This document shows positions 2,058 through 38,776 of a stretch of 39,787 nucleotides of DNA, piece by piece. Position 1 is the stretch's first letter; every line of letters starts with the position of its first letter. The position numbers were made by a program, and so were the translations under genes. The notes under the pieces are model-generated. The model was given only the letters and a program-made list of their open reading frames with translations. It did not search any database and had not been told where the DNA came from. The DNA is from Candidatus Woesearchaeota archaeon. GTDB taxonomy: Archaea > Nanobdellota > Nanobdellia > SCGC-AAA011-G17 > GW2011-AR18. The stretch is taken from positions 7,803 to 47,589 of the forward strand of contig JAGWAD010000031.1 of assembly GCA_018302105.1 (NCBI GenBank). Reading direction: 5' to 3'.

Positions 2058-3179
2058 TTAAAGAAAATCAATTTCAATTTCAAATAAGTCACAGGTAGCA
2101 AGCTCTTCAACAACTGCAGGATATAAATTAATAGATTTTAAATATTTTTTATTTTTTTCTACAAATTTTTTAGATGCAAATAATCTAAATTTTTTCTTAT
2201 CAATACCTATGTCTATAATTCCAAATTTTTCTGTTAATTTATTTTTTAAATTTTCTAAATCGTTAACTATTTTTGTTTCTTCAATCTGTTTTACATGTTC
2301 TAAATAATTGAATGAGGGCTTGTCTATGTAAATGGCTCCTCTAATCAATGACCCATTTTTTGTAACAATATCATAATTTTTCTTAATATTTTCTGCTCTT
2401 AGTTTAATTCTGTTTCCTAATTGTTGATTATTTTTTAGTCTTGAAGTGCAGAAATGTATATTTATATTTTTATCTTTATAATGGTTTAAAATCTCAAGTG
2501 CTAATTCTTCAGATCCTTTAATACCATAAGATAATTCATTTTTAGATTTATATCCTTTATCAAAAACTAAATTCCTTTTAGAATCTGCAGCTTCAAGTTC
2601 ATTAAGATTAAAGAAATCCACTTTATCTTTAAAAAATTCTATAATTTCATAAGTTTCTTTTTTTAAATCTGGAATGCATGGAATTTCTATTCCGATTTTC
2701 CAATTAAATTTCTTTGCAATATAAATATTATTCCATTTATTTTTGTTATAAAAATCAGCATGGAACCTTATCTCGTCCAAACCCGCATCAAACAATTCTT
2801 TTAAATTATTCTCATTTACTAAATCAAAAGATGTATAGAGATGAATATGAAATTCTTTTCCAAACTTAATTTTTAAAGATTTAATATACTCTAAGCATCT
2901 ATTTAATCTTGTTAATGGGTCTCCACCTGTTATTCCTGCACCACTTGCATTGCATAAAATTGCCTCATTAATAGCATCACTTACAGAAATTATTTTTTCT
3001 TCATTTGCATAGATTACATCATTTTGGAATTTTTCATCTGCAACAGGGCAATACCAACATTTTCTTGGACAGGCTCCAGTAATAAATAATACTAATTTCT
3101 TTCCTAAAACACAGTGCTTGCAGCCTTCAGATAGTTCTCCAATTTTAAATGAGCTGAATTCAGTAATTGTTACTTCCAT
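2058..3179 (-). CDS. Radical SAM protein, COG2108-like (PFL-activase-related)
   Basis: The 373-residue protein carries the radical SAM CxxxCxxC cluster motif (Cys37, Cys41, Cys44 in ACPRKCWYCP), preceded by a conserved Cys20-x2-Cys23 pair and followed by a glycine-rich GAGITGGDP segment that contacts SAM. This arrangement matches the archaeal family related to pyruvate formate-lyase activating enzymes (COG2108), which is broadly present in archaea and has no established substrate. The C-terminal third (ENLKNKLTEKFGIIDIGI onward) is an extra domain. The gene lies 30 bases downstream of nth on the same strand, and an AT-rich TATA-like stretch lies at the nth 3' end, so it may have its own promoter as well as readthrough. 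Substrate and pathway are unknown. Confidence 0.82.
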   Translation of the reverse strand: MEVTITEFSSFKIGELSEGCKHCVLGKKLVLFITGACPRKCWYCPVADEKFQNDVIYANEEKIISVSDAINEAILCNASGAGITGGDPLTRLNRCLEYIKSLKIKFGKEFHIHLYTSFDLVNENNLKELFDAGLDEIRFHADFYNKNKWNNIYIAKKFNWKIGIEIPCIPDLKKETYEIIEFFKDKVDFFNLNELEAADSKRNLVFDKGYKSKNELSYGIKGSEELALEILNHYKDKNINIHFCTSRLKNNQQLGNRIKLRAENIKKNYDIVTKNGSLIRGAIYIDKPSFNYLEHVKQIEETKIVNDLENLKNKLTEKFGIIDIGIDKKKFRLFASKKFVEKNKKYLKSINLYPAVVEELATCDLFEIEIDFL

Positions 3180-33203: not shown

Positions 33204-34569
33204 ATTCCCATTGATCCTGTGGGAGGTCGCTGCTATTGGGATTCGAATTAGCCATGCAAGTCAGGGTATTCGTAAGAGTAACCGGCATAAGGCTCAGTAA
33301 CACGTCGATAATTTGCCCTTAGGTCTGGAATAGCCTCGAGAAATTGAGGGTAACACCAGATAGAAGAAGGATACTGGAATGTTCCATCTTTTAAAGGCAA
33401 CGCCTAAGGATAAGTCGGCGACTGATTAGGTTGTTGGTGAGGTAACGGCTCACCAAGCCTTGGATCAGTAGGGGGGATGAAAGTCCTAGCCCCGAGAAGG
33501 GCACTGAGATACTGGCCCTAGCCCTAAGGGGTGCAGCAGGCGCGAAAACTTTACAATGCACGAAAGTGTGATAAGGGAATGGCGATCACGTTTATTGGGT
33601 CTAAAGCGTTCGTAGCCGGTTTAGTAAGTTCTTTGTGAAATTGTTGGGCTTAACTTAACAACGTGCAAAGAATACTGCTAAACTAGAGACTGGGAGGGGA
33701 CAATGGTATTCCAGGGGGAGCGGTAAAATGTTAGAATCCTTGGAGGACCACCAGTGGCGTAGGCGATTGTCTAGAACAGGTCTGACGGTGAGGAACGAAG
33801 GCTAGGGGATCAAAACGGATTAGATACCCGAGTAGTCCTAGCAGTAAACTCTGTGAGCTGTGTGTTGCATAACCTTAGAGGTTGTGCAGTGCCTAAGTGA
33901 AGACGTTAAGCTCACCACCTGGGAATTACGATCGCAAGATTGAAACTTAAAGGAATTGGCGGGGGCTCACTACAAGGGGTGAAGAGTGCGGTTCAATTGG
34001 ATTCCACGCCGGAAATCTCACCAGGGGCGATGGCAGGATGAAGGTCAGATTAAAGGTTTTACCTGACACGCCAAGAGGTGGTGCATGGCCGACGCCAGCT
34101 CGTGCCGTGAGGTGTCACGTTAAGTCGTGCAACGAGCAAGACCCACATTTACTTTTACCAGCAGGTCTTACGAGACGACTGGGTACAATGTAAAGACTGC
34201 CTTCGTAAGGAGGAGGAAGGTGTGGGCAACGTTAGGTCCGTATGCCCCGAATCTCCTGGGCTACACGCGCTCTGCAATGGTAGAGACAATAGGAAGCAAC
34301 TCCGAAAGGAAAAGCAAATCCATTAAACTCTATCTTAGTTTGAATTGAGGGTTGTAATTCACCCTCATGAAACCGGAATCCCTAGTAATCGGGTCTCATT
34401 ACGGCCCGGTGAATACTGTCCCTGAGCCTTGCACACACTGCCCGTCAAACCAACCGAGCAGGGCTTAGATGAGGTGTAGTTCTTTGATTATTCCGAATCT
34501 AAGTTCAGTAAGGTGGGTTAAGTCGTCACAAGGTAACCGTAGGGGAACCTGCGGTTGGATCACCTCCTT
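33204..34569 (+). rRNA. 16S rRNA, lacking helices 16-18
   Basis: An archaeal small-subunit rRNA, from ATTCCCATTGATCCTG (start, about 33204) to GGATCACCTCC (end, anti-Shine-Dalgarno, about 34567). Conserved blocks are present in order: GCAGCAGGCGCGAAAAC (about 33535), ATTGGGTCTAAAGCG (33594), ATTAGATACCCGAGTAGTCC (33819), AACTTAAAGGAATTGGCGGG (33945), GCAACGAGC (34128), and CACTGCCCGTC (about 34437). Length is about 1366 bases, roughly 115-130 short. The shortfall is at one place: after GATAAGGGAA (33571-33580) the sequence passes straight to TGGCGATCACGTTTATTGGG, so the region that should hold helices 16, 17 and 18, with the universal 530-loop sequence, is missing. Everything else reads normally. 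Boundaries are approximate. Confidence 0.93.
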
Positions 34570-34616: not shown

Positions 34617-34766
34617 GGGCCCGTAGCTCAGCCCGGTAGAGCATCGCCCTTGCATTTTGTTATGCATAGGTAAATTGCTTTACTAAGCTTACACAAGTAA
34701 GGCGGGGGCCTCGGGTTCGAAAATTAAATAAGTAACTTATTTTATCGAAGAGTCCCGACGGGTCCA
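34617..34766 (+). tRNA. tRNA-Ala (TGC) with anticodon-loop and T-loop introns
   Basis: It lies in the 16S-23S spacer, the usual place for archaeal tRNA-Ala. The acceptor stem GGGCCCG/CGGGTCC (34617-34623, 34759-34765) includes the G3-U70 pair that identifies tRNA-Ala. D arm GCTC/GAGC. The anticodon arm is TCGCC/GGCGG with TGC at 34651-34653; an intron of about 45 bases follows A37 (34655 to about 34699). The T stem TCGGG (34711-34715)/CCCGA (34754-34758) encloses 38 bases instead of 7, implying a second intron of about 31 bases with a 7-bp hairpin AAATAAG-TAA-CTTATTT (34726-34742). No CCA is encoded. Confidence 0.9.
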
Positions 34767-34841: not shown

Positions 34842-34858
34842 CGTGCATAGGTTGTTAG
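34842..34858 (+). other. 23S processing stem, 5' strand
   Basis: CGTGCATAGGTTGTTAG (17 bases) is the exact reverse complement of 37781-37797 and encloses the 23S, so it forms the long helix from which mature 23S is released. Confidence 0.75.
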
Positions 34859-37780
<2,922 letters not shown>

Positions 37781-37797
37781 CTAACAACCTATGCACG
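37781..37797 (+). other. 23S processing stem, 3' strand
   Basis: CTAACAACCTATGCACG, exact complement of 34842-34858. A T-rich tract follows (next entry). Confidence 0.75.
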
Positions 37798-37872: not shown

Positions 37873-37881
37873 TTATTTTAT
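37873..37881 (+). repeat. IS target-site duplication, left
   Basis: TTATTTTAT, immediately before the IS terminal repeat; identical to 38768-38776. Confidence 0.85.
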
Positions 37882-37899
37882 GGCTCTGTTGAAAGTCTC

Positions 37900-38694
37900 T
37901 TATCTCGTGAGGGATAAGTTGTGGGCTATAGCCCTACAATATATTTCCGCTCGTTGAGTTACCAGAGACTTGGACAGAACCGAGCTTCCATACTTCCTTT
38001 TAATACTACTGAATCCAGATTCAATCAAGCTTCTTTGATGATATTCCTTTTCTGAATAGTTCTTCATTTGTTTTTTTCTGTATCTTCCTCGTTTTACATT
38101 CCTTTTTGGTTTAATCATTGTTTGAATACCTCTATGAAAACAAGATGCATGGATGAATTCAGCGTCGTACGCTGAATCACCAAACAAGGTTTTTATGTTC
38201 TTAGATCGTTTGAGGAGATAGGTTACATCTTTAACATCATGTCTGGGCCTTGCTCTCACACGAAGAGCAATAAATTTTCTGTTTTTGATACTGTATAATG
38301 CAGAAAGTTTTACAAATCTCTTCACTGGTTTTTTTTGATCTATCCGTTGCACATAATAACTGCTCGGGTTATGTAAACTATATCCTGTGCCATCGATAGC
38401 AACCTGTCCATTATTGTTTCCGATGGTAAGCTCGAGTAAAGAATTCCATATCCACAAGGGAATTCTTTTCCTTATTTTGCACAAGGCAGAATAAGAAGGA
38501 ACAGTGAATCCTAATAGTTCTAGAATGTTAGAAACTCTTCTGAAAGAAAGCCTTAGCACTTCTTTCAACAGCAACGCTAAGGCGTGCTGTTGGAGTTGAT
38601 ATGTTTTAGGTCCAAAATGGTGTAACCATCTTGGCGCGCCAATCATTTCTAAAGAATGATTAAGTTTTTTAATTAATTTCACTTCTTTTTTCAT
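37900..38694 (-). CDS. IS transposase, DDE type
   Basis: The 264-residue protein has the DDE triad in order: Asp101 in AIDGTGYS, Asp173 in LFGDSAYD and Glu225 in SLIESGFSSIKRKYG. The Y-R/K-rich C-terminal spacing after the Glu is the Y(2)R(3)E(6)K-like arrangement of IS5 relatives. The N-terminus (QLQQHALALLLKEVLRLSFRRVSNILELLG) is a helical DNA-binding region. It is unbroken and fills most of the element. GC-richer wording than its neighbours suggests recent entry. Confidence 0.93.
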   Translation of the reverse strand: MKKEVKLIKKLNHSLEMIGAPRWLHHFGPKTYQLQQHALALLLKEVLRLSFRRVSNILELLGFTVPSYSALCKIRKRIPLWIWNSLLELTIGNNNGQVAIDGTGYSLHNPSSYYVQRIDQKKPVKRFVKLSALYSIKNRKFIALRVRARPRHDVKDVTYLLKRSKNIKTLFGDSAYDAEFIHASCFHRGIQTMIKPKRNVKRGRYRKKQMKNYSEKEYHQRSLIESGFSSIKRKYGSSVLSKSLVTQRAEIYCRAIAHNLSLTR

Positions 38695-38725
38695 GTTTAT
38701 GTTTCACAAACGATAAACATTGTTG

Positions 38726-38748
38726 CTAGGCTAAAGTTTTTAGCCTAG
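38726..38748 (-). repeat. Hairpin between the transposase start and the IS end
   Basis: CTAGGCTAA (38726-38734) pairs perfectly with TTAGCCTAG (38740-38748) around AGTTT. It lies just upstream of the transposase start inside the element. In other IS elements such a stem-loop blocks translation from read-through transcripts that enter from outside; that role here is inferred. Confidence 0.6.
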
Positions 38749-38767
38749 TGACTCTTTCAACAGAGCC

Positions 38768-38776
38768 TTATTTTAT
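38768..38776 (+). repeat. IS target-site duplication, right
   Basis: TTATTTTAT directly after the right terminal repeat, identical to 37873-37881. Confidence 0.85.

Follow-up and report, generated by a model that had tools for sequence, protein, structure and literature searches.

Short-read assemblers break or merge 16S rRNA genes at their conserved segments, across which De Bruijn assemblers carry no strain information (PMC11443906). Local assembly errors are a recognised problem of MAGs, and assemblies made by IDBA-UD are suspected to suffer from them most (PMC7111523). Separate from such errors, archaeal 16S rRNA genes are known to bear introns at loci that include 374, 548 and 781 (PMC4496867), and the fragmented mitochondrial rRNAs of Plasmodium and others consist of segments encoded at separate places (PMC3382252). 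Here we describe an archaeal 16S rRNA gene that, as deposited, lacks helices 16–18 together with the 530 loop. We read this hole as most likely a local assembly error; in all probability, the 16S rRNA gene of the organism itself is normal.

The window (the whole stretch of 39,787 nucleotides that was analysed) makes up the end of contig C26 (47.6 kb), which belongs to a draft genome of 1.15 Mb in 42 contigs that is 98% complete. An earlier note, made from the letters of the window, had claimed that helices 16–18 and the universal 530 loop are missing from its 16S rRNA gene, and both the match to Rfam model RF01959 and alignments bear this out: the match has a single internal hole, consisting of 9 plus 101 unfilled model positions at 33576/33577. 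Alignment with E. coli rrsB and with relatives identifies the missing stretch and shows it to be somewhat wider than helices 16–18, taking in half of the helix 4 3' strand and the start of the helix 3 3' strand as well; it amounts to ~109 nt. Where the gene is intact in other genomes of the order, 180–183 nt separate the fixed flanks GCAGCAGGCGCG and TTATTGGGNNTAAAG; in our sequence there are 74 nt. In the deposited sequence, GATAAGGGAA ends at 33580 and is directly joined to TGGCGATCACG, starting at 33581, with no Ns at the join; the alignments support the split proposed before, GATAAGGGAA/TGGCGATC, and the T at 33581 can be assigned to either side, giving an overlap of 1 nt. The missing piece would be expected to have flanks like GATAAGGGAATCCC and AGTGGCGATCAC. 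Outside the hole, the gene aligns nearly without indels to that of archaeon GW2011_AR18 (~90% identity), shows no further decay and otherwise fits the RF01959 model.

Table 1. Features of the rRNA locus and its surroundings (positions in the window).
Feature	Position	Strand	Details and basis
16S rRNA gene with internal hole	33204..34568	+	Rfam RF01959, 1275 bits, model 1-1478; sole SSU of the genome
Helix 4 5' strand TTGGGATTC, kept	33236..33244	+	Partner GAATCCCAA half present (GAAT, 33578-33581); RF01959 structure line
Helix 15 hairpin CAATGCACGAAAGTGTG, kept	33554..33575	+	RF01959 structure and alignments; absent from GW2011_AR18
Junction GATAAGGGAA/TGGCGATCAC	33571..33590	+	Gap of ~109 nt at 33580/33581, equivalent to E. 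coli 398-548; from alignments to E. coli and intact relatives
Spacer tRNA-Ala(UGC), two apparent introns	34617..34765	+	Read from the sequence
23S rRNA, complete	34856..37783	+	Rfam; sole LSU of the genome
DDE_Tnp_1 transposase of the insertion sequence	37900-38694	minus	

The 23S rRNA gene of the locus is intact over its full length, as the earlier note had it. ARAGORN misses the spacer tRNA-Ala(UGC) on account of two interruptions, a 45-nt intron at 34655-34699 in the anticodon loop and an insertion of ~30 nt in the T loop; the tRNA-Ala of GW2011_AR18 (L002 ~2990-3018) has the T-loop insertion and no anticodon intron. About 100 bases after the 23S rRNA gene lies an insertion sequence (37880-38770) with inverted ends GGCTCTGTTGAAAG and CTTTCAACAGAGCC. 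The last bases of the contig (39690-39787) begin with GGCTCTGTCCTGAGTCTC and resemble the start of an insertion-sequence end, which may be the reason that the contig stops there.

The position of the join relative to secondary structure is informative. On the 3' strand of helix 4, GAAT is retained, CCCAA is gone, and the next base is E. coli 549; all nine helix 4 pairs are broken in the RF01959 structure line. The 5' strand, TTGGGATTC, is nevertheless kept, and is the exact partner of the intact GAATCCCAA of relatives G005 and G010. Helix 4 covaries among intact relatives (TTGGGATCC/GGATCCCAA in G009, TTGGAATTC/GAATTCCAA in G039). With helix 4 severed in mid-strand and its partner strand kept, the join makes no structural or functional sense. 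Moreover, whereas the breaks of a fragmented rRNA are expected in loops or expansion segments, the left break lies inside the helix 4 3' strand and the right one inside the helix 3 3' strand. In a fragmented rRNA that functions, one would not expect a helix strand to be cut in this way.

The ribosomal proteins of the region are unaltered. The uS4 protein, whose rRNA binding site is the junction of helices 3, 4, 16, 17 and 18, is complete and ordinary; it was found by an alignment of relatives, Pfam model PF00163 being too insensitive in this group. The uS12 protein, which touches the 530 loop, is likewise intact and ordinary, keeping the PNSA motif within QPNSAMRKC. Together with the conserved helix 4 5' strand, these two proteins provide indirect evidence that the ribosome still expects the missing piece. 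In every ribosome known so far, the 530 loop belongs to the decoding centre. It is exceedingly improbable that this ribosome truly functions without helices 16–18 and the 530 loop: the assembled sequence is the sole evidence for such a ribosome, and it is opposed by the universality of the loop, by an unchanged uS4 and by the retention of the helix 4 5' strand.

We searched for the missing piece, and for other rRNA copies, in five ways. A 19-mer of the 530 loop is absent from the whole draft genome at up to three mismatches; the window, too, holds no copy of the pattern at this tolerance, as had been claimed for it. The 14-mer GCCGCGGTAAYMCC is absent from the draft genome at up to one mismatch, and blastn with the corresponding segment of G009 (E up to 10) returned from it the retained helix 15 and noise only. 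We also used 13 intact relatives to build a covariance model of the segment, which had no match in this genome at E up to 10. This search, which scored 150 first-look candidates per genome and is therefore strong rather than exhaustive, found the segment in eight of eight intact control genomes at E<1e-30, and even recovered the leftover helix 18 of GW2011_AR18 at 2e-7. Finally, RF01959 revealed neither a second SSU locus nor a separate piece in the draft genome; as assembled, this contains a single SSU locus and a single LSU locus. The genome-wide search proposed beforehand, for the 530 loop and for a second 16S rRNA gene, has thus been run on a 98%-complete draft and found neither: no segment encoded elsewhere by any of the five search types in this ~98%-complete assembly, no intact copy alongside the shortened one among its single SSU and LSU loci, into which further copies might have been collapsed, and, relative to GW2011_AR18, nearly no other indels of the kind that a decaying pseudogene would have gathered.

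Comparison with relatives places the hole in context. The full segment is present in 20 other genomes of the order, the frequency being taken from the covariance model, and these include G001, G005 and G009 of the same family. By contrast, the 16S rRNA gene of archaeon GW2011_AR18 (G006; JWKX01000012.1), also of this family, is likewise shortened between helices 15 and 19. Five members of the family can be read in this region, and two of them are thus affected. The two holes differ: GW2011_AR18 (L002 1831-1914) lacks ~E. coli 368-508, that is, helix 15, the helix 4 3' strand, helix 16 and helix 17, and keeps the 530 loop. Their overlap spans helices 4, 16 and 17 with the variable region V3, and neither boundary of one coincides with a boundary of the other; the stretch missing from GW2011_AR18 was not found elsewhere in that genome either. 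Because its hole is different and its 530 loop is kept, both genomes cannot share one fragmented-rRNA design, and the hole of GW2011_AR18 is probably a separate assembly error in the public record. A third case comes from Methanoregula, a distant, unrelated archaeon: in the draft fen_63 (L041 5768-5772), 'NN' stands in place of helices 15–17 of the 16S rRNA gene. A similar stretch is absent there, and the 'NN', which begins one base from the left end of the GW2011_AR18 hole, openly marks a scaffold gap whose length is wrong. Close relatives are therefore either normal or different in no systematic manner.

Two other approaches to the relatives were set aside. That GW2011_AR18 aligns to our sequence in one piece had suggested a deletion shared across the family, which was dropped since its hole differs. 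Exact-pattern surveys for shortened 16S rRNA genes using GCGCGNAAA miss the common GCGCGAAACC and yield no usable frequency; the intact pattern of these surveys was found in just 1 of 103 genomes. Among the species genomes searched, none other contains an exact match to the join, GATAAGGGAATGGCGATCACG.

Putative introns vary among the 16S rRNA genes of this family. G009 (L022) and G001 (L012) have inserts of 107–111 nt after E. coli 792 and of 56–58 nt near 1079, both absent from the genome studied here (G000) and from GW2011_AR18. The 792 insert lies in the 790 loop, near the listed archaeal loci 781 and 803 and coinciding with neither. Our locus resembles the described archaeal introns (PMC4496867) in that the right end of the hole coincides with locus 548, and differs in that G001 and G009 carry insertions at ~792 and ~1079, whereas our gene lacks sequence instead and contains no intron. 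Because of this coincidence with locus 548, an intron at that site that failed to assemble would be a reasonable trigger of the break, judging from the position of the hole.

How, then, might the hole have arisen? In an assembly error, the sequence would have broken in the V3/530-loop region and its two sides would have been joined without the ~109 bases between them, by the assembler or by a scaffolding or gap-closing step, the responsible step being one that we infer. The break could have been triggered by strain variation in V3, by the conserved 530 segment or by an unassembled intron in the true gene. In favour of an assembly error we count the cut through helix 4, the different hole of GW2011_AR18, the 'NN' of Methanoregula, the 20 intact relatives and the intact uS4 and uS12; different holes in one stretch that is hard to assemble, one of them marked by Ns, are consistent with errors of assembly or scaffolding. 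The likeness to the local errors and scaffold misjoins described for MAGs (PMC7111523) lies in a join within a contig, in a hard-to-assemble region where other genomes show other holes or Ns; the difference is that the present join was judged from the assembled sequence. Against an assembly error stand the absence of Ns at the join and the overlap of 1 nt, which is too small for a simple collapse at a shared k-mer and rules this out as the cause. Two hits among five family members also exceed random expectation, although V3 is common to both holes; they may be accounted for by strain diversity that both genomes share in V3, or by introns that vary.

Of the three options that the earlier note had offered, dropped bases are thus the best supported, an extra copy is disfavoured because the assembly has a single SSU and LSU locus and the remaining gene is undecayed, and a separately encoded piece is contradicted because the piece was not found in a 98%-complete genome and the join cuts a helix. 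It is unlikely that the deletion is real but confined to one rRNA operon or to part of the population, with an intact 16S rRNA gene left unassembled and the present copy a pseudogene or polymorphism. The near-zero overlap is what end-joining would leave, the right end matches E. coli 548/549 exactly, where archaeal 16S genes are known to have an intron locus (PMC4496867) and a homing endonuclease could cut, and G001 and G009 bear putative 16S introns at other sites; yet the draft has one locus of each rRNA, the gene is otherwise sound, and an intron at 548 was seen in no relative examined. Still less credible is a fragmented 16S rRNA whose helices 16–18 are encoded elsewhere and either function as an RNA of their own or become joined in trans. 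The intact uS4 and uS12 imply that the ribosome should still hold the five-way junction and the 530 loop, and splicing machinery is presumably present, since the tRNA-Ala gene suggests that tRNA introns are spliced; these points must be set against the failure of every search, the split in mid-helix 4 and the incompatible hole of GW2011_AR18, whose own missing piece is nowhere else. Fragmented mitochondrial rRNAs such as those of Plasmodium (PMC3382252) are similar in having segments encoded apart, and differ in that no separate piece was found in this draft genome. It is likewise very improbable that the unassembled 2% of the genome hides a separate gene for helices 16–18, in a family in which this stretch of the 16S rRNA gene is disrupted repeatedly.

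If the deletion were real, the ribosome of this archaeon would either do without a universal element of the decoding centre or be supplied with it in trans. Read as an artefact, the hole is a warning: two drafts of one archaeal family are holed in the same part of the 16S rRNA gene, and a third, unrelated draft is N-gapped there. 16S sequences extracted from such drafts would be missing V3, the site of primer 515F or both, so that checks of primers and trees built from them could go astray.
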